From: Isoetes taiwanensis
Taxonomy: Eukaryota; Streptophyta; Lycopodiopsida; Isoetales; Isoetaceae
Assembly (NCBI GenBank): GCA_021234155.1
Contig: JAJEKV010000004.1
Coordinates: 12,738,716 to 12,802,715 of the forward strand
Direction: 5' to 3'
Length of the DNA: 64,000 nt
The notes beneath the pieces are model-generated. The model was not told the origin of the DNA. It did not search any database and was given only the letters and a program-made list of their open reading frames with translations. Within the stretch, counting starts at the first letter, position 1; each line of letters starts with the position of its first letter. This document shows positions 7,613 through 62,095 of this stretch, one piece after another. The position numbers were made by a program, and so were the translations under genes.

Positions 7613-8560
7613 ATCATAACATATATATGTTCTTATGTTTGTAACACTCAATCCGACCGTTGATCCGAGATCCTACGGCTCACGTGGCTTTGGGAGGTTT
7701 GGTACGGTTGTCGCGCTCAATATATATCTGATATCTGATATCATAATCATATCATAACATATATATGTTCTTATGTTTGTCCTCTTGAATCCGACCGTTG
7801 ATCCGAGATCCTACGGCTCACGTGGCTTTGGGACGTATTATGCGGCCCAGATGGCTTGGGAGTTTGTGTATAGACTATATGTAAGCGATCCTACGGTCCA
7901 GGTTGATTCGATCCTGATCGTCGGTTTGGCTTCGAGATCCCTCTGACTCCGTTGGTTTAGGACACATCCTACGGTGCACATGGCTTGGGAGTTATATGTA
8001 ATCGATCTAACGGCCCAGGTTGCTCTTGATCCTGATCGTCGATCCGAGATCCTACGGCTCAGGTGGCTTGGCACATATTCTACGGTCTTTGGGAATTATA
8101 TGTAATAGATCCTACGGCTCATATTGCTTTTATATGGTGAGATCATAACATATATATGTTCTTATGTTTGTCCTCTTGAATCCGACCGTTGATCCGAGAT
8201 CCTACGGCTCACGTGGCTTTGGGACGTATTATGCGGCCCAGATGGCTTGGGAGTTTGTGTATAGACTATATGTAAGCGATCCTACGGTTTAGGTTGATTC
8301 GATCCTGATCGTCGGTCGGAGATCCTACGGCTCACGTTGGTTTAGGACACATCCTACGGTGCACATGGCTTGGGAGTTATATGTAATCGATCTAACGGCC
8401 CAGGTTGCTCTTGATCCTGATCGTCGATCCGAGATCCTACGGCTCAGGTGGCTTGGCACATATTCTACGGTCTTTGGGAATTATATGTAATAGATCCTAC
8501 GGCTCATATTGCTTTTATATGGTGAGATCTTGATCGTTGAACGAGTTTAAGATCCTAAGG
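7613..8560 (+). repeat. 390-bp tandem repeat with internal CCTACGG motif
   Basis: A partial unit (7,613-7,700) is followed by two fuller units (7,751-8,141 and 8,142-8,527), each beginning ATCATAACATATATATG. Within each unit the phrase GATCCTACGGCTCA, followed by TGGCTT, recurs five or six times. The array is thus a higher-order repeat of a shorter 40-60 bp module. An open frame on the minus strand here is a by-product. Confidence 0.85.
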
Positions 8561-10240: not shown

Positions 10241-10245
10241 GGATC
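10241..10245. repeat. 5-bp target-site duplication, left copy
   Basis: GGATC directly precedes the LTR. The same five bases follow the rightmost LTR at 62,091-62,095. Five bases is the usual duplication length for Ty3/gypsy integrases. Confidence 0.8.
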
Positions 10246-11887
10246 TGTGACGTTCCAGGGGAATATACGCTATATATACGTATATTCCTGGATCCGTCAC
10301 CATACAAGTCTACCAGAGTAGCCTTGTATGCATTGGAAAGTGGCAAGGGGTGCACATCTAAGTTAATTGTTTAACTTAGATAACCTTAGGATAAGACCCA
10401 TTTCCACATGGCCTTATCCTATTGGGCAACCGCCACATGGCCTCATCCTAGTGGTGCCACGTGGCATCCCATGTGGACCCACACCTATATTAGCTCTAAC
10501 CCTAACCCTAGACCCTTTTTCCCTGACCTAGCACCTAAACCCTCATCCACGCGCCCGAAACTCCGTTTCGAGCATCGATCGTCGTAGCCTAGCCTGGAGC
10601 AGCGGCCCCTGGAAGGTGTGTATGATCGTAGAGGGAGCCAGTCTTCGAGCCACGTCGAGGAGCATGGAGACGCCAGGGATGGGAGGAAGCGCTTCTGGAG
10701 GAGGTAGGTTGAGTAGAGTCCATGTTAGTCCATCTGGGAGTTAGCACTCCAGATGGGTTGGTATTTCGTAGCTAGAGTAGAGCCACCCTAGATCCCTTGT
10801 TGAACATCTTGAACCCTAATCTATGAACCCTAACTAATGGTTAGATATGTATGATTAGGTTAAGATGTTCATATGATATTGTTCATGATGATTATGGGAT
10901 GATGGTTGATCATGTTTGTTCCTCTTGTGTTGGGAAGGGGGGTAGAGACCTAGGGCCATATGTAGTATGCTCCTAGTATAGATCCCTTAGTTCCTAGTAG
11001 ATTGCGGCCTGTGCATAGGAACCCACCAGGCTATGGAGGCTATCTTTGTGACTCAGCACTACACAACGGGCTAGAGGCAATGTGGAGGGAGGATCCCCCG
11101 AGGGGGGGCTACGGGGGATCCCATAGTGGGCTAGGCTTATGGCTGGTCACTGCAAGTGTGGGCGGGCATGGGTCCCGGCACCTCCCCGGGCGAAGGTGTT
11201 GCCCCCGCTCTCAAGAGTTGCAAGTGTCAGCTTGGCTCTTGTTTTGGGGGTTCACTGGGTACAATCGTGTGTCGCCACGATTCTCTAGCCGCCCGTGGAG
11301 CCTCTAGACCCGAAGGGGAGATGCAACCCTTCCCACCTCGACGGACCGTGGAGATGCAACCTCGAGTAGTCCCGGATGGGTGATGCCATGGGATTGCGAT
11401 CCGAAGGTTAGAGTCATGCCGAGCCCCGATCTAGCCCATCCGCAAAGTATGCACGTGAGGGGCGGATGGAGTGGTCAACCCTAGCCATTGTCTTATGCCA
11501 GCCCCGCCATTGTTATGACTCGGTGCAGCTTCTATCTTGAGGCCTATCCAAATGGGTCGACTTCCTTTCGTGGCTCGGAGCCACCGTAGGATCTCTCATG
11601 TTTTATGGCATATGATTATGTTCTTTGCATCTATGGATATGCGATTGAGCTACCCTCGAGGTAGCATATTGTATTGTATTGCTAGTTCTCGACGTGGTTA
11701 CGCTCCTCACTGCGGATAGGAGCCCATAGGGGAAGGGCGCGCAAGACACCTTCGTGTCCCCTTCCCGCACTACGGAGGATTCCAGAAGTGCGGGATAGAC
11801 GGAGGGCCTGTGCGGTTGATGAGCCGGACGGGGGATTTCCTGCCGAGTGTACGGCCGGGCGCCGTATGTTTAGCAGGGAGCGTCATA
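10246..11887 (+). repeat. 5' LTR (LTR-A), 1,642 bp
   Basis: It begins TGTGACGTTCCAGG and ends GCGTCATA, where the partner LTR-C reads GCGTCACA, so the terminal CA has changed to TA. The first 55 bases form an inverted repeat. A TATA-like CTATATTAG (about 10,486) precedes a telobox-like CTAACCCTAACCCTAG. From about 10,930 to 11,520 the LTR is GC-rich and runs through short, non-coding open frames. LTR-A has few apparent indels compared with the inner LTR. Confidence 0.9.
10247..10301. repeat. Inverted repeat at the LTR start
   Basis: GTGACGTTCCAGG...AATATACG is mirrored by CGTATATT-CCTGGATCCGTCAC around a TATATATA centre. The arms are about 22 bases. The same design occurs at 5,343-5,394 in the second LTR family and at the starts of the other two LTRs here. 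Confidence 0.8.
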
Positions 11888-11888
11888 A

Positions 11889-11900
11889 TGGTATCAGAGC
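11889..11900 (+). promoter_or_regulatory. Primer-binding site, initiator tRNA-Met
   Basis: TGGTATCAGAGC is the standard plant LTR-retrotransposon primer site, complementary to the 3' end of initiator tRNA-Met. It starts one base after the LTR end. It is the only intact copy in the element because internal region 2 lacks this segment. Confidence 0.9.
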
Positions 11901-12464
11901 GATGTTCTTGGTTGACCAGGAACTAGCACTGACCATAACCTTGAAAGTAGTCTAACAAGCTTATAGGGGTGTGAAATAAAAATTTCCACCATCGAACCTC
12001 GAAAATAAGGGAAAAATTTTTCTCTTAGGTAGTGGGTCCGAAATTAGCTTAAGTGTTAGACGAAGAAATGAATAAGTCGAATTCATCTTCTAGTAAATTG
12101 GTGTGGAAATTATGTATCTGCATCAAATTTCACATAAAATGGGTCGAAGAATCATGCCAATCGGAGACCCGAGTGAAAAATGGCGCGAATCCATAATTAG
12201 CACATCAAACCATTAGGAAATTCGAAAATTTAAAGTAAAATACAAAATTAATACAAAGTTAATATATACATTAATAATTAAATAATTACTAAATATGGTG
12301 TAATTAATAAGGGAGGCTATAATAAATAGGGGTAATTATGGTGGGAGAATATTCCTAGGGACCCTCCTTTTTAAATATCTGACACCTCATTCTCTCTCTC
12401 CAACCCTTCACCTTCACCTCTCTCTTGATCAGCCTTACGTCACCCATTTCTTGAACCACAAGAC
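11901..12464 (+). promoter_or_regulatory. AT-rich leader with a possible promoter for the histone-like gene
   Basis: The leader becomes very AT-rich after 12,200. TATA-like words stand at about 12,314-12,325 (TATAATAAATAG) and 12,368-12,377 (TTTTTAAATA). A CT-rich stretch (CTCTCTCTCC, about 12,390-12,425) follows, 40-75 bases before the histone-like ATG. Such CT-rich leaders are common in plant genes. Whether this is a captured promoter or part of the retrotransposon leader is unclear. Confidence 0.4.
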
Positions 12465-13565
12465 ATGGCACGCACCAAGCAAACCTACAGGAAGACTGGC
12501 CCTAGGCCCACCCTCTCCATGGCGCAGTAAAGGGCGGCATGTCAAGAAGGTCCCCGGTAGCACCTTCGACCGGGCTGTAAGAGGAGGAGCTTCCTCTCCA
12601 AAGAGCAGCGGCGACACCTATCATGACGCCGAAGAGGACGCACCTAGCACCAGCAGCAGCTCCTCATCGGCGGGTACCCAGAGAACCGGCGAGTCCCGCC
12701 ACTTTGGGCCCTCGACGGACACCGAGGTCGAGGAACAGGTTGAAGAACAGTGGGCGGGCAGCAAATAAAGAAAGCACTCAAACAGGAGGCAGGCCCTTCA
12801 AAGACCTAAGAAGAAGGGCAAGGAAAAAGCTGGCGGAGTGGCCTAAGAGAAGGCGCTAGGAAGAAGAGGGAGCGAGAAGGAGCTCAGCGCGTGAGAGAAG
12901 GACAAGAGAAGAAACGACCGCCTCAAGGACCGGCTGCTATTGAAGAGCCTCGTGAAGAGGAGGAGGCCCGGGAAGGGGAGACGGCGAGGAGGAGGAGGAG
13001 CAAAGATCGATTCCCGACGCCAGCCACCCTACCCTAAGTGGGCCGTGAACCACCAAAAGTGGTGAAGAAGCGAAGGTAGGGGGGCATTCAAGGCCCGACA
13101 GGATCGCTAATTCAAGCGTAAAAATGGCGCATACAAGGAGGTACCTCCATCGCTGGACGAGGTACAACGATTGGTATTGCCGCCAAGAGGTGCAACTGGG
13201 TCGCGGAGGGCGGCAGGTCAAGAAAAATCAGCCGGCCACCCCCCACCTAGACCGAAAACTCCAAAAGGGTTCACCACGGGCCAACAGCAGTGTACGCCTG
13301 GTATTTAGGAGATAAAGCACTTCCAAATGTGCACAAATCTCCTCATAAGGAAGGCTCTCGAAATCCTCCTTAGGGAAGTCATGCAGAGTTCCTGACCGAT
13401 TATAAGATCACCCCTCTAACATCCCGGGCCCTGCAAGAGGCTGCTGAAGCAGAGCTGGTGCAGCTCTTTGAGGAAGGGAATCTCTGTGCCATCCATGCTA
13501 AGAGAGTCACCCTTACGCCAAAGGACATTCACTTAGCACGGAGGATCCGCAGGGAGAGGCCCTAG
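12465..13565 (+). CDS. Histone H3 variant-like protein (CENH3-like) inside the retrotransposon, frame-broken
   Basis: The N-terminus reads [12 protein letters not shown], matching the H3 tail over the first six residues plus R8 and K9. The C-terminus is a clear H3 histone fold: EIKHFQ..TNLLI (about 13,315-13,350), [46 protein letters not shown] and a TAG at 13,563. KHFQ..TNLLI and the Thr before the alpha-2 helix resemble plant centromeric H3. Loop 1 has canonical H3 length. Between tail and fold lie about 230 residues of charged, Ser-rich, Pro-rich linker ([32 protein letters not shown]), so the protein is more than twice normal H3 length. As written, stops or shifts occur near 12,528, 12,766, 13,035, 13,311 and 13,386. 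The last sits in a CAG and looks like a missing base. There are no evident introns. Confidence 0.85.
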
Positions 13566-13802
13566 GCCTCAAATTTTGTAAATTTTGTTATAAAAGTAAA
13601 ATTGCCATGTAATTGTGCTTCTTGTTAATATAAAAGTATTTCCCTCTGTAATTAGGAAAAAAATGTTGTATGCTTGAAATTTAGGAAATAGAACCTAATT
13701 GTAGTAGAATTCTTCATAGCACTCTCAGAAATATCTTAGAAATCATGACTACAACAAAATTTTGGCAAAAAAAATCATCAAAAAAGCAAAAATTTGGGCC
13801 AA
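13566..13802 (+). other. 3' region of the histone-like gene
   Basis: AT-rich non-coding sequence with several AATATAAAA-type poly(A)-signal-like words (about 13,628-13,645), as expected of a plant 3' UTR. It leads into the GC-rich hairpin. No other feature seen. Confidence 0.4.
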
Positions 13803-13868
13803 CCGGGTGAGACCGCGCCAATGGCTTCTGCGTCCCCGACGCGGGCGCGTTCCGCGCGGACTCACCCG
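13803..13868. repeat. GC-rich hairpin repeat, copy 1
   Basis: CCGGGTGAGACCGCGCC is mirrored by GCGCGGACTCACCCG around a CG-rich centre, giving a strong 66-base hairpin. Related copies stand at 30,361-30,426 and 52,689-52,755. Flanking bases (GGCCAA before, an AATTAGCCA block after) are also shared, so the repeat unit is about 150 bp. Confidence 0.75.
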
Positions 13869-14670
13869 ACTGCCCCCAAAAACATGCTTTTAGATGTCAG
13901 TTCTGCTCAAAATAAGTTGCTAGTTAGTTAGAATCGGCCCAATTAGCCATGTTACACAAGGCGCCCAAAAATTTAACCATTATAAATAACCACTACAAAA
14001 CCACTATGATAGTGGTTTTCTGAGCAAAAATACTTTTTCTCAATAAAATCCACATATTGAAGTGGTTTTTAAAATGTGAATGTGGTTTTATATGCTAGTT
14101 TATACTGTAATATGGTTATTTCAAAGTGATAAAGGTTTTTATCAAGTTTTTTGGTACTGATTTGACATGTCATGGTGGTTAATCATGCAGTTTGCAACAT
14201 TGAGAGTAAGAAAGGGATGTTTACTAGTTTTTTAATATGTGTAGATGGTTTTGAGAGCGGATTTAACTGGTAATACTTCAAGGTTTTTTATATAGTTTGA
14301 TAACATGTTTTTGTTTGTGGTTTTTCATCCTAGTTTTGCAAGAAAACACGACATGCCAAAATGTTAGTGTTTTTTTACTATAAATACTTTAATGGTTCTA
14401 GACATAGCATTTTTTATGTGAGGTTTTCCATAGTAATTTCTAAGCTAACATGACTTGTCAAATTGTTACTAGTTTTTTAATATGGTTTGTTGATTGACTT
14501 TTGCAATTTCTTATTCACAAAAGAATGCTAGTGGTTTTTGTCATGGAACATTTAAATCATTGTGTGGTTTTATATCTACTTTCCTAAGTTATTATGACTT
14601 TAAATTACTTGTGGTTTTTAACATGGTTTTGCTGGTCAATCTTCGCAAGATGGAAGCTAACGTAGTCTAT

Positions 14671-14678
14671 ATAGTCAA
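14671..14678. repeat. hAT target-site duplication, left copy
   Basis: ATAGTCAA precedes the terminal repeat. The identical 8 bases follow the other end at 25,042-25,049. Eight bases is the hAT superfamily length. Confidence 0.9.
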
Positions 14679-14799
14679 CAGGGATAGGTTCAATACGCTG
14701 TACGTTTTATACGGAATACGTATGAATTGAATGATACGGCACAAATTTGCCGTGATAAAACGCAAAAAAAATACCTGGCGGAAAACAATTCCGGGGCCG

Positions 14800-15060
14800 T
14801 AAAAATTTTCAGACGCCGAAAAGCAACAAAACCGCTGCGACGCTGAAAAATTTTCACAGACGCTGAAGATTACAGCTTCAGCGACGCTGAAACCAATTTT
14901 TTTCGCAGACGCCAAAAATGCACGCCCGCCAGTCGCCGAATTTTTTTGCGTCAGCTGCTGATTAAGAGTTTTTCGCAGACGCGAAATAATTTGAACTTCG
15001 TCACGCCAAACATAATCTTCAGCGTCTGTGAAAAATATTTTCAGCAGACGCTTTTTGTTC
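14800..15060. repeat. hAT left subterminal repeats
   Basis: CAGACGC and GACGCTGAA words recur at least five times in 260 bases (for example about 14,811, 14,861, 14,900, 14,975, 15,042). Matching clusters stand at 24,690-24,930. Such arrays are transposase-binding sites in other hAT elements. A long minus-strand open frame across them is fortuitous. Confidence 0.6.
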
Positions 15061-15494
15061 CTTTCGCGACGACGAAAATTTTCTAAGCCGTTTTGCCCGT
15101 TTACTAAGCAAAAAATATTTGCGCCAATCGCTTGACCCGTTTTGTGGCAATCAAGTAATAGTATATATAAGAAAACGTGATTAGCCCTAGAATTCACCTC
15201 GAACGTTGACCGCCAAAGTTGAGTCAAAATACTCCTTGGAAACGGTTTGCCTTTGAGGTGTCGCTTTTTGAAATCCGCGACGACGTTGGATACCGAACGT
15301 GAGTTTACTCCGGCCCCGTGGTTTCCAGCCTTGGGTTGGCATCCGCTTCCGTAGAATATCCTATAGGGTCCTGTTCAACCCCCTTGATTCTTTCGCGATC
15401 GGAACGCCGACGAACATATGCATTGTGAGCTTGCCCCTTTGCATATATACGCCTTCCTTTAGTTCGTGGTAATCAAGGAGTCGATTAAGAGACA

Positions 15495-18071
15495 TTGTCA
15501 CCGGTCCGAGCAATGGTGGCTACCGGTCATGCATCTACCGAGGTGCAGTGCAGCGGTCATGCATCTACCTCTAGAGGTGCGAGGATCGCGGTGCCTGTTC
15601 GCAGGCCACGGACCGCAACTCGCACATGGTCGCCAACTGGAGTTGCGGGTCGGAAAGAGGCCCGAATGGGAGTTTGTGAAAGAGTTTGGCGCAAAATGAG
15701 TGGGAATGTGTGTTTTGTGGATACACATCGGTAAATGGTTCTGCAACAAGAATTCGAAGCACATCTTACGTGAACGACGACGCCTGTCGCGAACTTGTAC
15801 CGCAGACCGGCCGACTTGCGAAAGGATGCCATCGAGATTGTCTCGACCGATGGGATACGCAAAACGTAAGAATAATATGAGAAAAGACGAAGTTACTTAA
15901 TACTCAAGAGCGGGGCCGGGCGTATGTAAGGCATTTAAGATAACTATACCACCGCTGGGGACAAAGATACCGATCGAGGGCTGACTAGGGTCAATAGGTA
16001 CAAGCACGGAGAACAGAGAATGATAGAGACAATTGAAATAGTGGAAAGACGGTGATCGGCAAATGAGGGTTGATCATTGCTTAACATCGAAAGCAATTGA
16101 AGAAGACACAACCAAGGTTGTAGAGGCATTTTTATATGCTTTGCGTCTCCACATATTCTCCGAGCATAAAGCAATGAAAGAAGCCTTCCAAGAAGTTGCC
16201 AAAAGCAGGACCGGGCTTTTAGATCGCCTTCATACAAGCATGCCAACAATAAGATGGTTGATGAAATACATGGAAAAATGGTTGAGAGGGTGGAGATGAA
16301 GTTGTGTCGCAGACCCTGGCCCAGCTTCATTAGTGATCATGGTTGGAGCAATGTAAACAAGGACCATCTTATTAATTTCATGATCGTGGTATCCGTGGGG
16401 TGAAGTATTTTGAAAACCGTAGAAACCAAAACCCACCAAGTGACCGGAGATTGGATTTTTCGTAAAACAAAGGCCGCGTGATAGAGAGTTTTGGACCGAA
16501 GAGAATATTTCAAGTTGTAATGGATAACGCGTCTAATTGCAAGCTAGCGGGTCAATTACCGAGGTCAATTTCCGTGGTTGCATGCTACTAGTTGCCAATG
16601 CCATTGCCCTCCAACCTATTGTCGAAGGACCGGTTCTCACAAAGACACGCGGTTCAAAGATCCCATTCGTAAAGCGCCACGGCTTGTAAAATTCATCACA
16701 AAGAAGCCGCAATTTATGCCATTTACAAGTCATTAAGGCCGAAGAGCCTAGCACTCATGAATCCCGGCAAACTCGGTTTGGTTCCAATTATATCCGCCTT
16801 GAAAGAGTGCTGAAGTGTCGTGATTGGATTATCTCAACCTTTAATCATACGTAGTTTTTGATTGGGAAAGAAGGCGAAAAGGGAAAAATGCCGCCAAACA
16901 CCGACAAGAAGTCACCGCCCTTCGAGAAATGCTTGGGCTGGAGACATTTTGGAAAGGTGTAAAAATGTTGTGAGGTGCATGCAACCCGCTTGTCATGCCA
17001 TCAAAACCCTTGATTCTTCGAAGGCAAGCAATCGGAAAGGTCTGGAGGTGTTGGCACTCCATTCAATCCTTCCTAGAACGTGATGGTCCCAATGCGCCAT
17101 TTGACAATGCTAAGCGCGCAAAAGACTACTCGAGAGACTTCAATGAACGATGGAAGAAGTCATACAGTGATCTTCATGGCGCCGCGATGCCTTAGACCCA
17201 CACAACCACCATATGGACCAGCATACACGATAAAGAAGTGATGGGGTCGTTGAAGAAGGTTGCAAAAATGTTCTATCCCAACAGCTTGGACTACAAGCTT
17301 TTCATTGCCGAAGTTAACCAATACCGTAACCCGAAAGTGGAAGGTGGGCGATGAAGAGCTTCACGACGACCGGAGAGTCATAAGAAGGAACCAAATATGG
17401 AATCATATGCATGGTGGCAAGCCCATGGGCAAGTTATCGATACCTTGCGTGCAATTGCAATGACTATCCTCTTTTGGTATCTTCCAATAGTGCAAGTGAG
17501 AGGAATTGAGTGCCTATAAGTACATACACAAATGTCACCCGCAATCGCTTGCTACATAAGAAGGCGACAAACTTGTATACAACTTCAAACCGGGCGGCTA
17601 TTGAATCGTAATGCTGGTACATCCGCAATCGATAAGCTACGCTTTCCTTTCATGGATGCAGATTCCGGCGGGAAGAGGACAAACTTCAAGACAGTTGAGG
17701 ACGAGATGCTTGCAATAAATGCCGCAAGCCATGTTGATGAAGACATTCAACGTACCCACTTCATTGATGACGGCGATGATATAGACCAAGCCATATTCTC
17801 GCACGGATCAGCCGGTGGCCGAGGATACCGAGGAGTCTGATACGTAAAGGCCGTGTTCGAAAGCAATGCAGCTTGATGACGGATCGGGCTTACGTGATCC
17901 AATGGACTCACCTTTGGCGCTTTACCTTGACAAACGAGAACGGGCTAGGAAAAACATCGCCTCGAGGACGTTTCACTAAAGGAAAGGGTCATCGGAGGTT
18001 GAACCTAGGTTCCCAAAGAAGAAGAGGATGGAACCGCAAATGATGAAATCGATGAAGAAGGCGCCGCCTAG
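15495..18071 (+). CDS. hAT transposase, BED finger to dimerisation domain, frame-broken
   Basis: Near 15,690-15,790 a BED-type zinc finger is visible: WECVFCGYT, then ATRIR and a downstream His. The DDE-fold region shows VVMDNASN..LAGQL at about 16,517-16,560, then RFGSNYI.LERVLKCRD near 16,770-16,825, and KRAKDYSR.FNERWKKSY near 17,112-17,170. The C-terminal hAT dimerisation motif SASERN.SAYKYIH and RNRLLHKKA is at about 17,480-17,565. The frame ends EIDEEGAA with TAG at 18,069. Frame shifts are frequent and mostly coincide with CAG/CTG sites. The start is uncertain; ATGs near 15,495-15,520 lead into the finger. AATAAA-like words follow near 18,148. Confidence 0.85.
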
Positions 18072-18199
18072 AAAAATGATGTGATGAGTATCTTCACCGT
18101 TGTAATTGGTCTTGAGGATTTTCATACTATTGTAACCGCCCCCGCACTAATAAAAAAAGAAGTTTTTGGTTATAATTTTTGTCACAAATGTTTCGTTAA

Positions 18200-19650
18200 T
18201 GTATGATAGTTCTTTCTATGTTTCTTTCTATGTTTCTTTCATGTGTAACCGCGTTGTTTCAAAACCTTCGTTGGATCGGACCCGCCTCGACCTCCGTTGT
18301 TGCTTGCCTCTTCGCGCATGCCGAGAATCTTGCTGATGAGAAGTAATCTACGCATGCTTAAGGGCCAAACAGCCTCGACCAGCCCTAACGAATCCCGATC
18401 CATCGGAAGGTTCACAAGGTACTTCGGCACCCAAGTCGGAATAACTTCTGGTATGCCAAATTGGGCTTTGAATGTTATTCGGACCTATAATTGTGACTTA
18501 TTCCCTCCTGGCGGCACATGCTCAATACCCAAATAGGTTTGCATGGCATGTGCCACCCAAAGGAATGGAGGTACAAATTATAGGTCCCGATGGCATCCAA
18601 ATGGCGATTTGGCAACCATTCAAGAGGATCACGCCCAGGCCAGGATGAAAGAGACTGAGTAGTTACAAGAACAATGGAACTTCCCAACCCTTTGCCCAAA
18701 GAGGAGGGAAAGAAAGATTTCATCAATCACCCATCCAATTAACCCAAGGATCTTTGAACAATGGAACTTAGCATGTAAACTAAGCTACATTGCCCAAAGA
18801 GGAGGGGAAAGAAAGATTGGGAAGTCTCGATGCTTGAACTCATCAATCAACGACATCTAATGAACCCACGTAATCGCAAGCTCCTTCTACGTAAGTCTAT
18901 TGTTTCGCCATGGAGAATAAGTCTATATTGTTTGCCCGACAACCATTCAAGAGGGTTGGCGCCGTTGGCTTACTTCCTTTTCGAAGTTTCATTGATCTAA
19001 TTCGGCCACCGAAAGTGAGCGATGTCATCCTAGGGGCAAATTAGATACACAAAACGTAAAACTAAGGAGACTAAGCCGGGTGAGCGAAGTTGGAAGACAC
19101 TTCCGGTATGCCAAATTGGGCTTTGAATGCTATCCGACCTATAATCTGTACTTTATTCCTCCGGGTGGCACATCGCGCGAATACCCAAATGGGTTTGCAT
19201 GGCATGTGCCACCCAAAGGAATGGAGGTACAAATTATAGGTCCGTGATGGCATCCAAATGGCGATTTGGCGCATTAAAAGTTAACGGACGCCCTCCAATT
19301 TCAAGTCATAGTGATGCTCAAGGTTCTCCATCAATAGAAGGAGTTAGGATGTTCCATGATTTGGTGCCTAACAGCCACCGTGATAGATGGACAACGCCTG
19401 TGCACCACTTTGGCTTGAAATTAGAGTGCGCCTCACCTCGACCTCGAGAGACTGGTTCCGTGCATCGAGATCGCCCCACCTTCTTTCCCCGGTCTTTGGA
19501 CAATGGAACTTAGCATGTAAACTAAGCTACATTGCCCAAAGAGCCGGGGAAAGAAAAACGGGAAGTCTCGATGCTTGAATTCAGAGTCAAAGCTTGCTTC
19601 AATCACTAACATCTAATGAACACACGTAATCGCAAGCAACCACTAGGCCT
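18200..19650. repeat. Imperfect 700-bp duplication inside the hAT
   Basis: The block around 18,434-18,885 recurs at about 19,105-19,635. Shared phrases are GGTATGCCAAATTGGGCTTT, TGGCATGTGCCACCCAAAGG, CAATGGAACTTAGCATG and GGGAAGTCTCGATGCTTGAA. One plus-strand frame gives GFAWHVPPKGMEVQIIG in both copies, which hints at a duplicated coding module. Stops interrupt it and I recognise no domain. A shorter echo lies near 20,040-20,110. Confidence 0.6.
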
Positions 19651-20267
19651 TATATCCTCCGTGGCCACAATAAAATAGAGTACTCAAAAACCTTGTAACC
19701 CTCCTCTAGAACGAACGATTTCTGCCCGGATTCCCATTTTGCGCCTTTGTGTAATATAACCTAGCAAAGTATCTAAGATACATTGACACAGAGACACGCA
19801 AAAGAGAGTGAGAGCAAAGCTCGCCCTTCTAAAGGAGGTAACAAGAATTCGAGAAGTCTATATTGTTTGCCATCGAGAATATAAGGCCCGTGACTTTGAC
19901 AACCATTCAAAAGGGTGAGCGATGTCATCCTAGGGGCAAATTAGATATAAAACATCCTGACCAAACCAAGGAGACTTCGGCTACAACAGTGAGCCAAAGT
20001 GACCACTAGGACAAACAAAAAGAGACTAAGCCGGGATAAAAGAGATTGGGAAGTCTCAATGCCTTTACTCGTCAAAACGTAAAACGAAAGAGCGATTTGG
20101 AAGTCTCGATGCTTTTACTATGAGCACTACTCGATCCTTTGATAACATCATTACACCTTGTTTGAAATAACGCCATTATACCCGCCATTCACAAAATGAT
20201 ACAGTCAAAATTTGGCATGTCTAAAAATGTAATATCTCATTTTCATTGGTCATTTGGATCAATATAA

Positions 20268-21840
20268 TCACCCTCGCCCCCGGAGGTGGTGGTAAGAACT
20301 GGTTAATGTCGGGCAATCGCTCTCCTTCACGCTGCTCCTCCACCCTCCACAATTCCATCTCGCGAAAGGTTTGAAAAGTGTGCATCTGCCCATCCCTCCT
20401 CGCGAGCGGTCAAATGTGGCAACGCTGGGTGCACCTTGCATATTAAATATGGCATATTGTAACTCGGGAAAAATCCATCCGCCTTGCAAGGTTGGACGTA
20501 AGCGGCTTTGCAACATCCAATCAAGAACACATCGCATGTGCATACGATGCCCACACCCTAGAGTGTACCAGCCCACCTGTGGTCGCCGTGTCACCACAAA
20601 ATTGGCAATGTCGTAAATCAACAACCTTTAGCTCTTCCCAATCGACTCTCATACAAATACTCGCGAGGGAGATAGGATATCGACCGTTCAAGTCACCCTA
20701 AAAGGGTCGAGTCTAACGATTTGGTCAAATTGCGCAAGTGCTCGCGTTGTTTTCTAAGGACCGCTGCCTCCCTGCTTAATGCCGCTTAGTTGCCGCTTAG
20801 CATCCTCTAATTCAGCGGCCATCTTATCATACCCATCGCACGGTCCCTTCGCGAATATTCTCCTCGAAAAGTGTCGTTCCGACTTCTCTCATTCTCTAGT
20901 TGGGCCCAATATCCACAAGGTCATTCACGGCTCCAGCCGCTACCACCCCCGGCACCTCCAAAAAGTTGGATAGCCAAGAACAAGGTATGTAATGGTGATG
21001 GGCTCACCATGTGGCCCCACTCTCGCTATCTTCCCGATAGCTTGACCCCTCTTCGGCCGCCACTACCGCTTCCTTGCCTCCATTTCCTACTCCCATAATT
21101 TACTTCGCACTTCCTTCACAAGCTCAGAGTATACTTGTTACAAAACTCTTACTAAACTCACCGCTGTGGGGTAAATGTCCCTTCACTTGACATGACGCCG
21201 AAAGTGCTTTTGCTCGAACCACAAAGATTCTTGCACTCGTGAGCCTTATACTTACCCCGCCTACTAGGCCACTCCTTTTCAAACTCATTCTTGTCCAAAT
21301 TTGTGATTACATCGTCGTGAGTCCGCTCCACTTGGACAATAGCTGTGCCCCGCCGCCAGTTTACATTATGCACCTCTCGTGATGGTGCAATTATCCCTCT
21401 TTGAAACTTCATCCATCGCACGCAACCTTCTTAACTTTGCCGCCGTATAAACTCATTCGCCTTTGCATGTGCTGCTGCTCTCTCCATTTGCCGAGCAGCT
21501 GACATCTCAAGCTCGTTCTCCAACCCTTGATGCCAAGGAGACTGAGTAGAGGGGGTCCTCAAATTAGAGGGAACCGAAAATCCATGCTGATCCTCCTTGC
21601 TTGACGACGACCGACATTCCGTGGTGTCGATTCAATTCTTCGTCCCCCTGCTCGTGGGACATAATTTGGACCATCGACTTCTATAGGTGCACCGACCCGA
21701 CTTGTATAGGTGTGCTTTGACTTCTTCTCTTTATAACGTTCGTTAGCTGCGACATATAAAAAAGCATAGAATAAATAACACAAAAAACACACGAAAAGGA
21801 AAACTAAGCTACACAACACACATAGACAATAATCTTTCAT
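20268..21840 (-). CDS. RING-type zinc-finger protein, hAT cargo, frame-broken
   Basis: Reading leftward, an Ala/Glu/Arg-rich helical region (LENELEMSAARQMERAAAHA, about 21,515-21,460) comes first. Next is a segment with HNVNWRRGTAIVQVERTHDD and NEFEKEW (about 21,370-21,280), then AAELEDAKRQLSG near 20,825-20,785. The C-terminal part carries CQFCGD (about 20,610) followed by GWYTLGCGHRMHMRCVLDWM (about 20,570-20,510). This C-x2-C ... C-x-H ... H-x2-C pattern fits a RING finger, suggesting ubiquitin E3 ligase activity. One shift separates the two halves of the finger. Copy 2 (42,670-44,150) conserves all blocks. It may be joined to the kinase gene upstream by splicing (acceptor-like TATGTCGCAG near 21,750), so one or two genes are possible. 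Confidence 0.55.
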
Positions 21841-21927
21841 GTAGCATCAGATAAGTGTTTAATGAATTTAGTTGGAATATTATGTAATACAAGGATGTTT
21901 GAATGTAAGTGAATGTGAATATGCACG

Positions 21928-23690
21928 CTAGGCGTGACTAGGACCAGCTTGGTCTAATGCATCGTCGCCACCCTGGCCAAGTTGAAGAATCCAATCTGAT
22001 TCCAATTGTGGCCTCGTGCACGGAATTGGAGAGCAATGAAAACTGCTCCGCATTGTGTCAAGTAGCTGGGCCATATCAAATTTTCGTGTTTTGTCCCTCA
22101 TTGGCGACTCAACGCAATGTTTCAAATAGTCGCACATTCTCCGATGCTTGCCTTGTTGCTCCAAGTTTCCTATTGACTCCATGTAGGAGTGCTTACTAGC
22201 AAAGTCAGCTAAGTAGTAGACAATGTACGCTGCCCCGTGTAAATCAAAGTCAACCCTTGCAGGCACTGTCTTCGAGCCACTACCAAAAAAAAGATCATCA
22301 TGCATATATGGATGCCTGGCCCTTTCCATCTCAATTCTTTTCTTACCTTCGCCATCCATACCCTTGTAATGCCATCGTTTTACCTCCACTGTCTCGTGGA
22401 TCAACCTGGATTCACCCCAATCACAAATGCCAATGTATACAGCCTGAGGATTAATACATCCCTTCTCCTTTCCATAATCAAAATGGAGCAATATATTGCC
22501 CGGATGCAAGTCCATATGCAAATATCTTTCTTGATGGAGCTTTCGTAGCCCGCTACAGAATGACATTGCTAAGTCCCCAACCCTAGAGGCAACAAATAAT
22601 TCTTTCTTTCTGCGCTCCTCAAGCAGCCTCAAGTCCGCCTCAACTCGGGGACAGCCCCAACTTCTTAAATGCAAGCTCTGCAAAGGCATTGGACCCATGA
22701 CTTGTAAAGAAGGTTGCCAACGAACCTCCATTCCAAAAAGGGAAAATTAAGCCTTGTCTTTCTAGGCCGGTTGTGCTACCAATGCAGCGTATTATACACC
22801 CGTGCCTAACTTGCATTCCTGACTCCCTCATGTTCTTCAGCATAGCTTCCACTAACTTATTGGGTTCTGTACTATGCTGAAAATTATTATGTTGAAGTTT
22901 TACACAATAAGGTTCATCCTTAATAAAACTAGACCCTAAAATATTGCACTTATACACTGCACCATATGAACCAGAACCAATTCGTTGTCTGTTTATTATT
23001 TGTGATGAATCTACCATGGCAAACCAAGTAGTCTTGGCATCTGCTCTTCTACGAGCTTCCCACTCCCTATCCGTCTCACCAGACGCTTTGGCTTTTATGG
23101 TTTGCGCCAACACTTTCTTAACAAGATGGGGGGGTTGATGGGCCTCTTTCTTCAATTTTCTGTTGGTCCACGCCGCATTCCATGTGCTGGCTTTTTCTTT
23201 CAACTCTAGCCTCAAGCGATGACTACTCAAATTTGCAACTTCTGCGGATCATATTGCCGTAGTGCGCTAATATTACCCACTATCCATGTATACCTCTCTT
23301 GCTCACTCTTTTCGTGATCTAGCTCCATCATTCGAAGCTTAAAAGCCCTCTCTGGCATCTTTTACCAGCCCCATGGTAGTCTAGCCATCCTTCCTCACCG
23401 CTAGTAATCAATTCCAAATCCCGAAATGAGGGCATTGCACACCCGATTACACAACCAGTTCATGAAATCTGGTCTCAAAGTAGACCATGCTTGTTTTTGT
23501 TGTGGTCTAGGTCTACTTCTTTTTCTACGCGGCAGTGCTGCAGAAGATGACTCAGGTTGCAGCTCTGTAGCCTGTGTTTGAGACGCCAATGCCTCTACTG
23601 GTTGCGGCTCTATCTGAGACACTAATGCCACATTTGGTTGCAAGTTAACTTCCGCTTCTCTTCCCAAGTCATACTTTTGTTTTAAGGGAT
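21928..23690 (-). CDS. Protein kinase-like protein, hAT cargo
   Basis: The N-terminal part is Gln/Pro-rich with a basic cluster (RRKRSRPRP), then helical. The kinase domain begins about 23,015 with glycine loop GSGSYGAVYK, followed by the VAIK-type lysine in CVKLQHN (about 22,900). The C-lobe shows catalytic loop HMDLHPGNILL (about 22,510) and GICDWGES (about 22,425) in place of DFG, then DFDLHGAAYIVYYLADF (about 22,245-22,195), resembling subdomain IX. Catalytic Asp, Asn and metal-binding Asp are present. The HRD Arg and the following Lys are replaced by Met and His, so it is an atypical but possibly active kinase. A single shift near 22,640 joins two long frames; others lie near 23,230-23,400. 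No clear ATG is seen. Product ends DQAGPSHA. Copy 2 is at 44,331-46,080. Confidence 0.75.
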
Positions 23691-23699
23691 TGTCTAGCG

Positions 23700-24386
23700 G
23701 CTAGCAAAATGCGACTCCTGATAATACGAACCGACAACAAAGAACACCTACAAGTCAAGCAAAGATAAAACTTTCAATTTAGTGCTTAGCACATGAGGGT
23801 AAATCAACTCACTTTAACCAAAACAAAACACTAATTTTATGCTTCCTACACTAAGACCCTAACATGAGTATGTATGTGCAAGGCCAAGGATAGGGTAACA
23901 AATAAAAGGACCAAAACACGATTTATGATCTATAGCCCAGACTACTTCCAAAATGCAAGGCTAGCAAGTTTTAAATTCATTGCATCTTGTCCTAGGTCAC
24001 GCTTTTTCAAAAGACGAGACCAATCGAATGCTTATCAAAACATACGCCAGTTCCTATATTAGTGTCGGACTTTCATCAACAACACCATCAGGAACTAGGG
24101 TGTGAATTGATAAAACATTCTCCTAACCCTTAATAAAAGTACAACGCACACCTTTCGACACCGCGTGACCAAGGCCAACAACGGCGTCAGGCGAGGGTTA
24201 TACTCTTACTAAAGGGAGACCCTAGTTGCCTTAAGCTTCAGCAGTGCCACCCACCCTCGGCATGGCGCAAATAAATGCGGCAATACCGTGGGCAAGGGGC
24301 ATGCCTATGCTCTTGGCAACACGCAAACCCTAAAAAGCCCTCTCCTTGTTGTTGTTTAAGGAAGGCAACCAATTTCTTTTCTTTTT

Positions 24387-24424
<38 letters not shown>

Positions 24425-24690
24425 TTATTTGCTTAAATTATTATTATTATTTTTTTCTAAAATAGGTTGCTCAAATTATTGCAACAAGGCACTCACCATC
24501 GTTCGCCCTTACATTAGGGGCAACAGTGCAGGGCCTAATCAAGGACCTAACCCCGCCTACCTATCAAAAAAAACAACAAAAAAACCCTAAAACTAAGAAA
24601 AACAAAAAAAAAAAGGTTTTGGGTGGCAAATTGCAAGGTTACGCGCGGAAATACCTTGTTTGGCGGGCAAAAAACCGAATCCGCTACAAG
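23700..24690. other. hAT 3' non-coding region with a 30-base T run
   Basis: No gene is recognised. A run of 30 T at 24,389-24,418 is followed by ATTATTATTATT-type sequence and short A runs near 24,560-24,620. Copy 2 has a shorter T run at the equivalent place. Because the kinase gene reads leftward from about 23,690, this region probably holds its promoter, but I see no convincing TATA box. Confidence 0.45.
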
Positions 24691-24930
24691 AATATATAAA
24701 AAAATTTCGCAGACGCTGAACGTGAAAAACCAACAGACGCTAACAACATCGCCTTGCACAGACGCCAAATAGTTTCAAAGCATACGCTGAAAAAACTTCG
24801 CGACGCTGAATCGGTTTTTCGGGCAGACGCCTGAAGTCGAAGCTGTACTTTTCGCGGCGCTTTTTGTATTTCGCGACGCCTGTTTTTTTTTCACAGACGC
24901 CTTATTCGAAGCTTTCGCTGCGAAATTTTT
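24690..24930. repeat. hAT right subterminal repeats
   Basis: CAGACGC and GACGCTGAA words recur as at the left end (about 24,706, 24,733, 24,760, 24,825, 24,895). They are in the same orientation as the left cluster, so the two arrays are direct, not mirrored. Confidence 0.6.
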
Positions 24931-25041
24931 TTTCCCACGGCGAGGTTTTTATACGTTAAATACGTATTTTATTAAAAAATACGTATTTTTTTACTTTATA
25001 CGTCAGGAATTTTAATTTTGTACGTATAGAACCTATCCCTG

Positions 25042-25049
25042 ATAGTCAA
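25042..25049. repeat. hAT target-site duplication, right copy
   Basis: ATAGTCAA follows the terminal repeat exactly and matches 14,671-14,678 in all 8 bases. Confidence 0.9.
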
Positions 25050-28000: not shown

Positions 28001-28900
28001 GGTAACCATAATCATATGGTGCGAGGCGGGCAAGGGATCCAAGTTCACCGACAGATTATTGCAACATCATGCTTTTGTGCATTATTTGTGCATCTTTGAT
28101 TATCGAATTATTGGTTTTGCAACCGTTGTGGTGTACAACCTGGTTGGGGATTCGGTAAGTGATTTAGTCTGAAACAAAAGGTGGCTACTGTCCAGAATAA
28201 TTTGCTTCATTAGTAACAAGCTTTTCTGAAACTAACTAGCCTTATATTGCAGCCCTATAATTTTATGCAGGCCATTAGACAGAATTGCAGATGGACATCA
28301 GACGATTCAATAAATTCTACTGTTGCATATTACAAGTTAAAACTATCCAGTGGATACTGGCACTTGCAGAGGCGCCAACAATTGGAAGCCATTTTCTTTG
28401 TGGCATTCAACCACACTGATTTTGGTCTTTTGATCAAGTGAATAGAATACCAGAAACAATCCCTGATTCTATTGCTTTGTCCCACATGTGAAGTATACCT
28501 AATCAATTTCTTTGAGATGCTTTGGTAGAGAGAAGGAAGTAAGCATCCAGGTAACCCTAGGGACGGAAGATGAGAGCAGAATATCCCAAGAATATGTGAA
28601 ACCGAGGTGGAGATTCATGCAGAACCTGATTTTGAAGGACCTAAGGAAACCCGGCAGCACTCTCAGTTGGCTCACATGCATGCAAAAGTCAGAATGAACC
28701 ATTTCTCTGCAGATTTGAGGCTAGCTTTTGTTTAAGATGATGTTACAGATCTTCGTTTCTTGTTTTCCTCTGTTTGTCTTCCTCTAGTTGCAGAAGTCCG
28801 GCATTAAAATTTACTCTATGTGATTGAAATTTATTGTATGTGTTCAGCATAAAAAAAGTTTCTTTTTATTTTGCTAAATTGTAATCGATCTAATATTCTG
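25050..28900. other. Body of the CACTA-like element, no recognisable gene
   Basis: Mixed AT-rich sequence with scattered short open frames, none longer than about 120 codons. A frame on the minus strand near 26,072-26,447 crosses a tRNA-like T-arm and is not convincing. A donor-like GGTAAGTG near 28,155 and exon-like composition around 28,250-28,440 might reflect an old spliced gene. The same region recurs at 47,400-51,230 with matching structure. Confidence 0.4.
26324..26343 (+). repeat. tRNA T-arm-like motif
   Basis: GTGGGTTCAAATCCCAC forms a perfect 5-bp stem with a 7-base TTCAAAT loop, as in a tRNA T arm. No matching D or anticodon arm is evident upstream, so it is only a tRNA relic. A copy exists near 48,666-48,683. 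Confidence 0.4.
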
Positions 28901-28939
28901 TTAAATTATAATCTACTTAACGTTTTGTGTAATCTAAAA

Positions 28940-30280
28940 GCGTTTTTTTTTTTTTTGAAAAACCACGCTAAAAAATTACCCATTGTTTCTAGCATTTTTG
29001 GAATAATATTATGCATGGACTTTAGGTGGTGTTTTTTTGAAAAAAAAAACGGCAAAAAACTACGCTATAGGTGGTGTTATAGTGAAACCACAAGGAAAAA
29101 ACATGTAAATATCATTTCAACAAAAGTAGTAGTGGTTCTTGTAAATACCACGCAAGGAAAAAACATTTAAATACAAATATTTGTAGCAGTTTAAGAACCC
29201 TACAATGTTACGAAACCATGCAAAAGACCACTACGCTTTAAGTAGTTGTTTTAGTCTAAACTTAACTGCTTGGATGTGAAAAGCATTTATGGTTAAGTAG
29301 TCTTAAGCACTAGGGGTATATGTTGAGCACGCAATGCATTTAATCATAAACACTATACGTACATGTTAAGAAACTATGTAGTCATTGTACAAAGATGTAC
29401 ATGGATAATTAATAAGATTGCTATGGTTTTCATTCATAAATTAAAAGTGCTTCGGATCATAGAAATGTAGTGATTTGTCATCTTCACCATTGCGTGTATG
29501 ATTGAAAAAACTATTAGATATTTAGTGGAAAGATTGCAAGTCTTTATATGCAAAAACTTAAGAAGCTTAAGAATAGAAACGTTAGTGGTTTATCAGCCTT
29601 AACGAGTACATCTTGAGTGTAAAGATAGGCATGTTTTTCCATGCAATAGTTGGAACGCTTTAGACTAAAAGCCATTAGTGGATTACCAACCTTAATAAGT
29701 ACTACAATACATAAGAAACCATCCACAATCCTTAATAGTTTAGTCTAGTAATTTGAAATGCTTTAGACTATATAGTAATACTTGTTTATAAATGATAACC
29801 ATGAATCTAGTGTACTACAAAACCATGCATTGCTACAACTAACAATTAGATCTAAGTTTGATAAACATAGTAGTGTTTTAATACAATAACCTAAGCACTT
29901 CAACTAATTAAATAATGGTGATTTACTGCATATAACACATCGCGAGTGTGCATTTACCACAATAACTAACCACATCATAAAAAATCATATAAATAGAGCC
30001 ACGACATCAAAGCCACATCCACAACCACCATATTATACCACATTGGGAAACCCTACCTCTAAAACATTATAATATACCACATCCATTTACCAACATAAAA
30101 TACCACTTTGACAAACACTAGGAAGGAGCCAGCCGTAGCAATTTCCATGCCATAATACCACACCCCAAGAACCTTACAAGAAAACCAAGTACTTTAGCCT
30201 CATATGGTTTTTAATGAAATTAACCCACAAAGACCCATTGGTTTTGTGGAATGGTTTTCTAGTCATAACCATGGGAAAAA
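28940..30280 (+). repeat. CACTA-like right subterminal region
   Basis: The plus strand carries many AAAACCAC, AATACCAC and AACCATG words at 30-80 base spacing, complementary to the GTGGTTTT words at the left end. It is strongly AT-rich and has no genes. The stretch 28,750-30,100 is practically identical to 51,080-52,430. Confidence 0.6.
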
Positions 30281-32549: not shown

Positions 32550-33636
32550 TGATCAGGATGACAACAACGAGGAAATGACGCCGGAGGCAATCAACGCAAA
32601 AGGCTGGTACAAATGAGGAATCGGATGCATCACTGATCCATTGGGCCACCCCATTGATGAATGCCCAAGGAATATGCACCGCACCACCTCCACCTCCACC
32701 ACTACCTCAGCAAGGCATTGAGGAAGGTCCACAGCCCGGGAGGGGCAAGACAACCGAGGGAAATGTCGAGAGGCAGAAGAGGAAAAGGAAAAAAGCGAAG
32801 ATCTCCAACTCCACCTAGCTCCGGCTCATCGGACACTTCGACACCCGCACAGTTCTAACTTTCCGGAGAGTGAGTCCGGACCTCCACGTGTAGAGCGGGG
32901 CAAAAAGAAAGGAAGATGACTATCGAGAAGAAGGTCGACAAAGGTTATGAGCAATGTGTGGAAGACTAGGAAGTTGGGCCAGTTCTCAGGAAAGGATAGG
33001 TCAGGCATGGAAGCGGAAGCATGGCTTGACGAGATGGAGGAATTTGGCAACTCTTATAGCATGAAGGACAAGGATATAGGGAAAGTTGCTACAGCAAACT
33101 TGATAGGAGCAGCTAGAATCTGGTGGAAGGGCTATGCTAAGTCTAATAAGCTCAAAAGAAACAATTGCAGATTTAAGACCTTCAGCAAAGCTTTCCGCAA
33201 GCACTATGTGCCAAGATCGCACACGAGCAGGCAGATCCAGCAGTTCTATAGGTTGAACCAGGGTACATTGTCAGTAGCAAAGTATACGGAGGAATTCATG
33301 CGGCTCAGGCTCCATGTTCCCGGAGTATCAGAAAGGCAAGCGGTCGATACCTACATTGAAGGGTTGAACAGCAATATCAAGAGGCTTGTTAGAGCAATCA
33401 ACCCAAGGTCAGTGGCAGAAGCTGAAGACAAAGCTATAAGTTTGGAGGAAGCACCATCAACTCCAGCAGAAAAACAGTCGGCCTTCAGGGGCAAAGCTTC
33501 AGGGCAGTACCAAGGGCAGTACCAGAGTAAGCAATCAGCAGCTACGCCATCAGGTGGCCAGCAGCAGGGAAGAGCTCAAGGTAAGACCTTTGGGGACCGT
33601 AAGCCGCCCGGGAATACATCGAGGGCAGTGTGCTAA
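32550..33636 (+). CDS. Chromovirus gag (capsid region)
   Basis: From 32,947 the frame is open for 229 codons. It shows the Ty3/gypsy gag core: GQFSGKDRSGMEAEAWLDEM, ARIWWKGYAK, FSKAFRKHYVPRS, YTEEFMRLRLHVPGVSE and VDTYIEGL, followed by a Gln/Gly-rich tail. The N-terminal part (32,550-32,946) is broken into several frames but encodes a His-rich segment (HHLHLHHYL), then a basic Ser/Pro-rich stretch, better read in copy 2 at 54,932-55,144. Gag assembles the particle that packages element RNA. The frame closes at 33,636, 6 bases into the next one, close to a place where copy 2 differs. Confidence 0.9.
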
Positions 33637-34297
33637 AGCGTATCCTAGACAGTTTGACGAAAGAGAAGAGACAGGAGTGTATTGAGAAGAAGCTTTGTTT
33701 CAGGTGCTTCCAGCCAGGGCACCGAACCCATGATTGCCCATTCGTCATGCAAGCAGCCTTGGCAGAGCTTATGGATTGGGATTCACCAACTGAAGCAGAT
33801 GAGGACGACGACCAGCATGAGGCCCAGGACTTCATAGATGGTGAGTGCCACATTTGTGCAAACATTGAGTCAGATGACATTGAAAGTCAGTCAACAGTCA
33901 TTGCGGCTGAGGGGATCATAGATAGCAGTCCATACCTATAGTATTGATAGATACAGGTAGCTCTCATAACTTTGCCTCACCTAGGCTGGCTGCCCTAATG
34001 AAGAACAAGGTATTGAAGTCTAAGCCAAGGCCAGTTGCTATGGCAAACGGCGCCATTCGGCACATTAAGGGGAGGAGGATCACATTCGACATAGACCTTA
34101 GTGGAAGTAAGTGGCCGATGGGGGCAGAGGTCATGGAGATTGGAAGGTATGACCTTATAGTAGGAATGGAGTTCCTAAAGCCAGCAAAAGCCATGATCGA
34201 CTGCGACCGCAATGAAGTCGCCATGACAGCACCGGACGGCACCAAATTCATAGTGAGAGGTAAGAAGACGACTTCTTCTATGCAAGTATTTCTTTGA
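33630..34297 (+). CDS. Zinc knuckle and aspartic protease
   Basis: A CCHC zinc knuckle, [14 protein letters not shown], lies near 33,693-33,735 and would bind element RNA at the end of gag. An acidic linker follows. The protease starts with [11 protein letters not shown] (about 33,947) and shows [10 protein letters not shown] (about 34,149-34,180), the flap and hydrophobic-Gly signature of Ty3-type proteases. One stop at 33,942 separates knuckle and protease. In the family these are usually one polyprotein. Confidence 0.9.
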
Positions 34298-35634
34298 AGC
34301 AGTTAAGGAAAAGTATAGAAAGAAATAAGGTGGATTACATCTTGAGATTGGAGGCTATTGAGCCCAATAAGCAGGATGGAAACGATCAAAAGGGAAAGCA
34401 ATTGCTCAAGCCAGTAGCTAGGCTTATTTCAGAATTCAAGGATGTATTTCCGGATGAGATCCGGCAGCTACCACCTTATAGGGGTGTGGAGTGTGAGATC
34501 ACATTAGCACCAGATGCTAAGCCTACCAGCAAGGCACCATACAGGATGAGCACACCGGAGTTGATTGAGCTCAAGAAGCAACTCCAGGAATTGCTTGAGC
34601 TCGGTTTTATTAGAGCAAGTGTGTCTCCTTTTGGAGCACCCATACTCTTCGTGAAGAAGAAAGATGGCAGTTTAAGAATGTGCATAGACTATCGCCAACT
34701 CAACAAACAGACGATAAAGAACAAGTATGCTTTGCCAAGGACAGATGATTTAATGGACCAGCTCCAAGGAGCAAAGGTATTCTCCAAGATTGATTTGAGG
34801 TCAGGGTACCACCAAATAAGAATAAAAGAAGAGGATATCCATAAGACCGCCTTCAGAACGCGGTATGGTCACTTTGAGTTTACAGTAATGCCCTTTGGAT
34901 TGTCGAATGCTCCAGCAACTTTTATGCGCCTCATGAACGACGTCTTCAGGGATTTTCTAGACGAGTTTGTCATTGTTTTCTTCGACGACATTCTAGTCTA
35001 CAGCAAGTCCATGGAAGATCATGATCAGCATTTGAGGAAAGTCTTGGAGAAGCTCAGACGCCATCGATTGTATGGCAAGCTCTCCAAATGCCACTTTGCT
35101 ACCGAAAGAGTGGAGTATTTGGGCCATGTAATATCGGCGGAAGGGATTTCCACCGACCCCGCAAAGATAGAAGCAGTAGTTGATTGGCCAGCTCCAAGGA
35201 ATGTAGCAGAAGTAAGAAGCTTTCTCGGGTTGGCGGGATATTACAGAAAGTTCGTGAAGGACTTTGCTAAGTGGGCGTCTCCTTTGACGGACCTCACTAA
35301 GAGTGTTAAGGTGAAAGATTGGAGAGCACATTGGTTAGAGAAAGTCCAAGTTTCCTTTGAGAAGCTCAAGGAGGCCTTGACAACAGCTCCAGTGCTCGTC
35401 CTTCCAGATCCGAGTAAAGATAAGCTCGTGGCTACGGATGCAAGCAAGATAGCAACGGGGGCAGTCTTGATGCAAGAAGAAAGGGTAGTCGCCTACGACT
35501 CAAAGAAGATGAATGACGCCGAGCAACGCTACCCAACCCATGATCAGGAGCTCTTAGCCATCATCAGAGCATTAAGGATTTGGAGGCATTATTTGTCGGG
35601 AAGAAAGTTTCAGCTTAGATACCGATCACCGTGA
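34294..35634 (+). CDS. Reverse transcriptase and RNase H
   Basis: A 446-codon open frame. RT blocks in order are [72 protein letters not shown] and the catalytic [12 protein letters not shown] (about 34,974-35,010). RNase H begins at [14 protein letters not shown] (about 35,431) with the first catalytic Asp and reaches [15 protein letters not shown]. The frame breaks at 35,634 in the RNase H C-terminus, just where copy 2 reads on. This is the best-preserved pol segment of internal region 1. It overlaps the protease frame by 4 bases. Confidence 0.95.
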
Positions 35635-52615: not shown

Positions 52616-52688
52616 TTTATTTTGGATGCCTTGTGTTAGCATCTTGAAATTCCCAAAAATGACCAAAAATTGGCCTAAAATAGGCCAA

Positions 52689-52755
52689 CCGGGTGAGACC
52701 GCGCCAAACGCGTCTGCGTCCGCGACGCGGAGGCCATCCGCGCGGACTCACCCGG
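52689..52755. repeat. GC-rich hairpin repeat, copy 3 (best arms)
   Basis: ACCGGGTGAGACCGCGCC pairs with CCGCGCGGACTCACCCGG. The loop itself contains CGCGTC...GACGCGG, a nested hairpin. It stands about 300 bases before the extra ORF. Confidence 0.8.
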
Positions 52756-58960: not shown

Positions 58961-59124
58961 AAATCACGGTACCCGGTGCTTAACCCCTTATTACTTGGCA
59001 CAATCCCTGTCAAAGGTTGAGGTGTCCCAACAAATGCTAGGAGATATGCAAAGCAGGTTGGTGGAAGAAGTGAGGGGTTACCTCCTAGCGACAGAAGTCG
59101 GCCGAAGAGTGTAGCCGCAAGCAC

Positions 59125-60437: not shown

Positions 60438-60448
60438 AAGGGGGAGAA
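60438..60448 (+). promoter_or_regulatory. Polypurine tract
   Basis: AAGGGGGAGAA ends immediately before the TG of the 3' LTR. This is the standard plus-strand primer position of LTR retrotransposons. Confidence 0.9.
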
Positions 60449-62090: not shown

Positions 62091-62095
62091 GGATC
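62091..62095. repeat. 5-bp target-site duplication, right copy
   Basis: GGATC follows the LTR end and equals 10,241-10,245. Confidence 0.8.

Follow-up and report, generated by a model that had tools for sequence, protein, structure and literature searches.

The window, that is, the whole stretch of 64,000 nucleotides that was analyzed, contained a Ty3/gypsy chromovirus array with the tandem arrangement LTR-internal-LTR-internal-LTR at positions 10246-62090. On the forward strand, the 5' LTR (LTR_a, 10246-11885) was 94.7% identical to positions 60449-62088 of the 3' LTR (LTR_c, 60449-62090, with the aligned part ending at 62088), and the LTRs had TG..CA ends. The array was flanked by the target-site duplication (TSD) GGATC at 10241-10245 and 62091-62095, a match that requires LTR_c to end at 62090, 2 nt beyond the aligned CA end of LTR_a. 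A primer-binding site (PBS, TGGTATCAGAGC), presumably complementary to the plant initiator Met-tRNA, was found behind LTR_a at 11889-11900 on the same strand, and a polypurine tract at 60438-60448 preceded LTR_c. The middle LTR (LTR_b, 38138-39403, forward strand) was truncated at its 3' end and showed 88% identity to LTR_a. Unit 1 carried, on the forward strand, gag and a zinc knuckle in stop-to-stop frames at 32920-33938 (Retrotrans_gag, 1.2e-17; zf-CCHC_3, 0.0017, under the cut-off) and reverse transcriptase (RT) with RNase H at 34264-35631 (RVT_1, 2.1e-41). Unit 2 (39404-60448, forward strand) contributed the integrase zinc-binding, SH3-like, and chromodomain regions at 58013-59613 on the same strand (Integrase_H2C2, 1.3e-20; SH3_Tf2-1, 3.8e-22; Chromo, 1.6e-11). 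The Pfam matches to gag, RT-RNase H, and integrase were thus divided over the two units, the chromodomain stood behind SH3_Tf2-1 at the integrase C-terminus, and the integrase scan covered the zinc-binding and C-terminal parts only, leaving out the catalytic core. The 120 RT relatives listed had identities of 45 to 68%. Many were metagenome entries; those with a named organism were nearly all plants or streptophyte algae, among them Tanacetum, Humulus, Closterium, and Striga, with one filed under a bacterium. The host is accordingly plant-like. A comparison of the RT with viral contigs gave 4 pattern matches, none of them a relative. Rfam at gathering scores returned 0 matches within 9000-64000, the tRNA scan found 0 tRNAs, and a bacterial promoter and terminator scan, whose models are ill-suited to plant DNA, stayed at chance level. 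In the left flank, a tandem repeat with a period of 385 bp was present in two copies at 7751-8529.

Inside the LTR-bounded chromovirus and in sense orientation, a decayed histone H3 gene was identified by sequence, Pfam, and alignment at 12465-13565 on the forward strand. Its ATG, at 12465 and 564 bp downstream of the PBS, opened the start MARTKQT, and its stop, at 13563-13565, fell where H3 normally ends. When read through one frameshift near 13387, the fold (13309-13562, forward strand) gave 85 residues that matched Pfam Histone PF00125 at 8.1e-21, and the open piece of 63 codons at 13374-13562 alone did so at E=9.5e-18. In agreement, the best histone chain among the PDB sequences was found at 8.5e-25, which together with PF00125 identified a histone fold of the H3 type, and 52 of 84 aligned positions were identical to H3.3; an identity of about 60% to this fold was typical among the 120 database matches listed. 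The fold, the MARTKQT start, and the stop at the H3 end therefore place the observation beyond chance. A sequence-only reading of this DNA had already described an H3 fold lying in sense orientation within a Ty3/gypsy chromovirus, and both points were confirmed by the Pfam and H3.3 matches and by the LTRs and PBS. Its placement of the gene between the PBS and gag was literally correct, but the gag frame began at 32920, 19.4 kb downstream of H3, and this distance arises in part because a nested hAT-like transposon of 10.4 kb sits between the two.

The frame of this gene was broken. The frameshift near 13387 divided the fold between two frames, and a frameshift-tolerant alignment to H3 placed a further shift near 13308, with a weak match upstream of it. 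The three forward frames of 12531-13308 contained 9, 6, and 5 stops; the frame running into the first part of the fold had 6, against 8.1 (SD 2.8) under a first-order Markov null (P ~0.3 for as few), and there was therefore no coding signal in the tail region. Within the tail, an 18-nt direct repeat (17 of 18 positions identical) at 12531-12548 and 13207-13224, both on the forward strand, bracketed 658 bp of purine-rich sequence (12549-13206, forward strand) that, in the ORFs scanned, had no match to Pfam at 0.01. The repeat suggests an insertion or a local duplication within a canonical tail, the alternative being an expanded tail. After removal of the 658-bp stretch, the tail beyond MARTKQT matched H3 with a score of 31 against a shuffle mean of 29.2, and 75 of 200 shuffles were as good. 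Because excision gave no better-than-shuffle match, both readings of the stretch stand; an unconstrained alignment of the tail favored two large gaps over one. A long coding N-terminal tail was rejected, since a read-through query of 367 residues returned no tail relative among the best 120 of 1512 matches (E of 0.1, 7978 candidates scored), and the local alignments spanned 23-38% of the query in the 120 matches listed. Hence, in place of the intact ORF of about 136 codons expected for H3, the locus contained a fold split by a frameshift, a tail with stops in every forward frame, and a non-coding tail stretch. The absence of visible introns, noted in the sequence-only reading, was true of the fold, which no intron interrupts; the 658 bp in the tail may be an insertion or an expansion. 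Judging from these lesions, this H3 copy shows no sign of still making protein.

The fold had been likened to centromeric H3 on account of its N-helix region (KHFQ..TNLLI), and the motifs HFQ, TNLLI, and RVTL do resemble plant CENH3. Nevertheless, canonical H3 scored higher: alignment of the fold gave 228 with H3.3, 227 with H3.1, 177 with a CENP-A chimera, and 157 with Arabidopsis CENH3, the last being the single plant CENH3 compared and an unverified sequence, as the 60 PDB matches listed included no plant CENH3 to check it against. Moreover, loop 1 aligned to H3.3 without gaps and thus had the canonical length, not the longer one of CENH3/CENP-A; gaps were required against the CENP-A chimera and the Arabidopsis sequence. 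The combination of FQ, TNLLI, and RVTL was also present in a database protein (P0004) whose loop 1 has canonical length. On loop length and scores, with a single unverified sequence standing for plant CENH3, the centromeric reading was rejected, and this H3 does not look centromere-type; it would rather be of canonical type.

Upstream of the H3 ATG, we observed an AT-rich, TATA-like stretch and a CT-rich leader, and a further AT-rich stretch followed the stop. Because the TATA-like stretch and the leader precede the ATG, H3 may have been captured as DNA together with flanking regulatory sequence. No clear TSD surrounded the gene, the longest exact repeat common to 11886-12465 and 13566-14670 being one AT-rich 10-mer, and an origin as a processed retrocopy was rejected on this ground. 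Runs of A were present 3' of the stop (A7 at 13657, A8 at 13767, and A6 at 13780), none of them paired with a TSD. Further downstream, 13770-13868 was similar to the interior of unit 2 at 52655-52754, in direct orientation and with 82% identity over 101 columns; at E 1e-3, no such similarity was reported against the interior of unit 1 itself.

The nested hAT-like DNA transposon occupied 14679-25041 on the forward strand, with terminal inverted repeats (TIRs) sharing 15 of 16 positions and, at 14671-14678 and 25042-25049, an exact TSD of 8 bp (ATAGTCAA). This TIR and TSD combination was the clear best in 11888-33000, and a 79-residue transposase piece joined from both units matched Dimer_Tnp_hAT at 7e-6; pieces from single units gave no match to that domain, only DUF659 at 0.24. 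H3 lies outside this transposon, and its carriage as hAT cargo was discarded because the gene ends well before position 14679, the first of the hAT. A second nested element at about 13.9-30.3 kb was likewise rejected, its best terminal repeats matching at 18 of 24 positions with unmatched flanks. On the minus strand, the hAT contained protein-kinase-like ORFs in two frames at 21931-23248 (Pkinase, 8.6e-7, under the curated cut-off; PK_Tyr_Ser-Thr, 3.7e-6, above it), whose N-lobe piece had 0 matches among PDB sequences at 0.001, and a weak RING-like ORF. A cargo scan of 11886-32950 covered 126 stop-to-stop ORFs with a minimum length of 58 codons; at a Pfam threshold of 0.01, it gave only weak matches beyond H3 and the kinase: RING (0.0031), SKA2 (0.0044), FixQ (0.0047), and Baculo_11_kDa (0.005). 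Of the unit-2 ORFs, a part was scanned.

Comparison of the two units showed that unit 2 has no equivalent of about 11491-16917, which comprises the LTR end, the PBS, H3, and the left end of the hAT; this gap looks like the outcome of a single deletion. Because the loss spans the PBS and H3 together, unit 2 is silent on whether H3 was a fixed part of the family. The right end of the hAT was found at the same site in both units, and for this reason their common ancestor probably already had the transposon. Over 1217 gap-free columns of a three-way LTR comparison, LTR_a alone differed at 29, LTR_c alone at 27, and LTR_b alone at 87; by these counts, the outer pair belongs together, and LTR_b is an older or faster branch. 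The array was bounded by one 5-bp duplication, and the middle LTR was the most divergent despite the shared hAT right end. In 11 stretches compared between the units, dN/dS ranged from 0.28 to 1.08 on few changes, with values, also from few changes, of 0.72 for gag, 0.66 for RT-RNase H, 0.63 and 0.82 for the kinase, and 1.02 for the RING-like ORF. Positions 28500-30000 were 97.4-99.8% identical to their unit-2 counterpart, and the other 500-bp windows were 78 to 99% identical; this unevenness suggests patchy gene conversion.

The divergence of H3 was then set beside that of the LTRs. The fold differed from H3.3 at 31 of 83 residues (37%), which a crude conversion puts at about 0.19 per nonsynonymous site for the whole fold and at 0.09 for its C-terminal half. 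The outer LTRs had a K2P distance of 0.055, so about 0.03 per lineage, and the H3 divergence was several-fold above this. Since the former exceeds the latter, we infer that most of the H3 divergence predates the insertion of this copy, provided that conversion did not homogenize the LTRs. Such timing fits an older passenger, the capture of a paralogue that had already diverged, or an old pseudogene that was inserted later. The match to H3.3 was uneven: from ALQEAA on, 36 of 44 residues were identical, compared with 16 of the 39 that precede this motif (P=2e-4 by Fisher's test, for a split point picked after the alignment was viewed). This argues against simple neutral decay throughout and leaves room for a period in which the protein may have been a constrained histone variant.

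Collectively, the reading we hold to be probable is that a large plant chromovirus captured, between its PBS and gag, either an H3 gene of canonical type or an H3 paralogue that had already diverged, and that the captured gene is now a decayed passenger in a dead array. Capture would precede the insertion of this copy, as the H3 and LTR divergences indicate; H3 would then have been carried as a passenger and have lost its function through the frameshift, the stops, and the disrupted tail, so that both the remaining H3 fragment and the tandem element around it are now dead. This sequence of events is supported by the H3 fold and start, the succession of LTR, PBS, gag, RT, and chromodomain, the outer TSD, the hAT TSD, the 82% similarity to unit 2, the divergence, and the lesions. 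Because its TSD pair ties 14.67 kb to 25.05 kb, the sequence up to the hAT would belong to the element. Weighing against a captured passenger, neither unit 2 nor any other part of the window showed a second copy carrying H3 at this position, the fold diverged unevenly, as pure neutral decay would not predict, and the similarity of 13770-13868 was not reported against the interior of unit 1 at E 1e-3. The presence of H3 in only one of two units would also fit a diverged H3 pseudogene or paralogue that nested into this single chromovirus copy after it had landed, in a family that never carried H3. As the hAT shows, the neighboring interval has taken up one or more further insertions, and the divergence from canonical H3 could predate insertion either way; yet no clear TSD or retrocopy hallmark accompanies the gene, even if inexact duplications and other routes are possible, and we regard such a late nested insertion as rather unlikely. 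That a misassembly joined the PBS region to an H3 pseudogene from an unrelated locus seems scarcely credible: nothing independent within the window spans 11.9-13.8 kb, but the sequence just 3' of H3 is tied to the element by the hAT TSD pair and by the unit-2 similarity that begins at 13.77 kb.

The uneven divergence, with its conserved C-terminal half, the sense orientation behind the LTR and PBS, and the retained MARTKQT start and canonical stop position would all fit an element family in which a functional, fast-evolving H3 variant was once present and expressed from the element, before this copy lost it. Against this, the frame is broken in this copy, the tail beyond MARTKQT does not rise above shuffles, of which 75 of 200 matched as well, and no tail relative appeared among the best 120 of 1512 database matches; we consider it improbable. 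Because of that same divergence pattern, position, start, and stop, one may go further and picture a plant chromovirus lineage whose leader, between PBS and gag, carried and expressed an H3 variant belonging to the element and so supplied a nucleosome subunit, this copy being a dead descendant, a proposal that we judge very doubtful. For this copy, with its broken frame, the suggestion that an element-encoded histone marks chromatin found no support.

Compared with known systems, the probable passenger H3 resembles the H3 genes of Dothideomycete fungi, which were captured by hAT DNA transposons and amplified (PMC6710886). In the account given there, Pseudocercospora fijiensis has 784 H3-like copies and RIP mutation, the captured copies in this species are inactivated by mutation, and many H3 copies of Pyrenophora tritici-repentis may be active (PMC6710886). 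Common to both cases is a housekeeping H3 inside a transposable element, with the P. fijiensis copies also mutated to inactivity; in contrast, the element here is a plant-like LTR chromovirus, one copy was observed, and H3 stands outside the nested hAT. An orchid Gypsy element of about 25 kb offers a plant Ty3/gypsy parallel with an acquired non-canonical cellular domain, 2-ODD, whose ORF was retained over several replication rounds and reported as functional (PMC9289625), whereas the present H3 is broken. The same source describes 15 extra domains in LTR elements of 121 angiosperm genomes under its n5 filter, and a histone goes unnamed in that main-text section (PMC9289625). Great length and extra ORFs are shared with the giant LTR retrotransposons Ogre of plants and Burro of planarians (PMC6431247), but the length here derives in part from the nested 10.4-kb hAT and the tandem arrangement. 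Host sequence carried by an LTR element is also the subject of a review of plant gene capture by LTR retrotransposons, whose main text has 0 occurrences of the word "histone" (PMC13317346). Among the open-licence papers searched, none of those listed described an H3 gene in a plant LTR element. Capture of H3 by a transposable element is already known, in the literature searched only from fungal DNA transposons.

If other copies of this element hold an intact H3, this retrotransposon would number a chromatin component among its products, a proposition that is directly testable; were it true, an element that reads chromatin through its chromodomain would also provide a nucleosome subunit. Otherwise, the locus adds another example to the host genes that were captured and then decayed, notable mainly because the H3 captures known from the literature searched belong to fungal DNA transposons.
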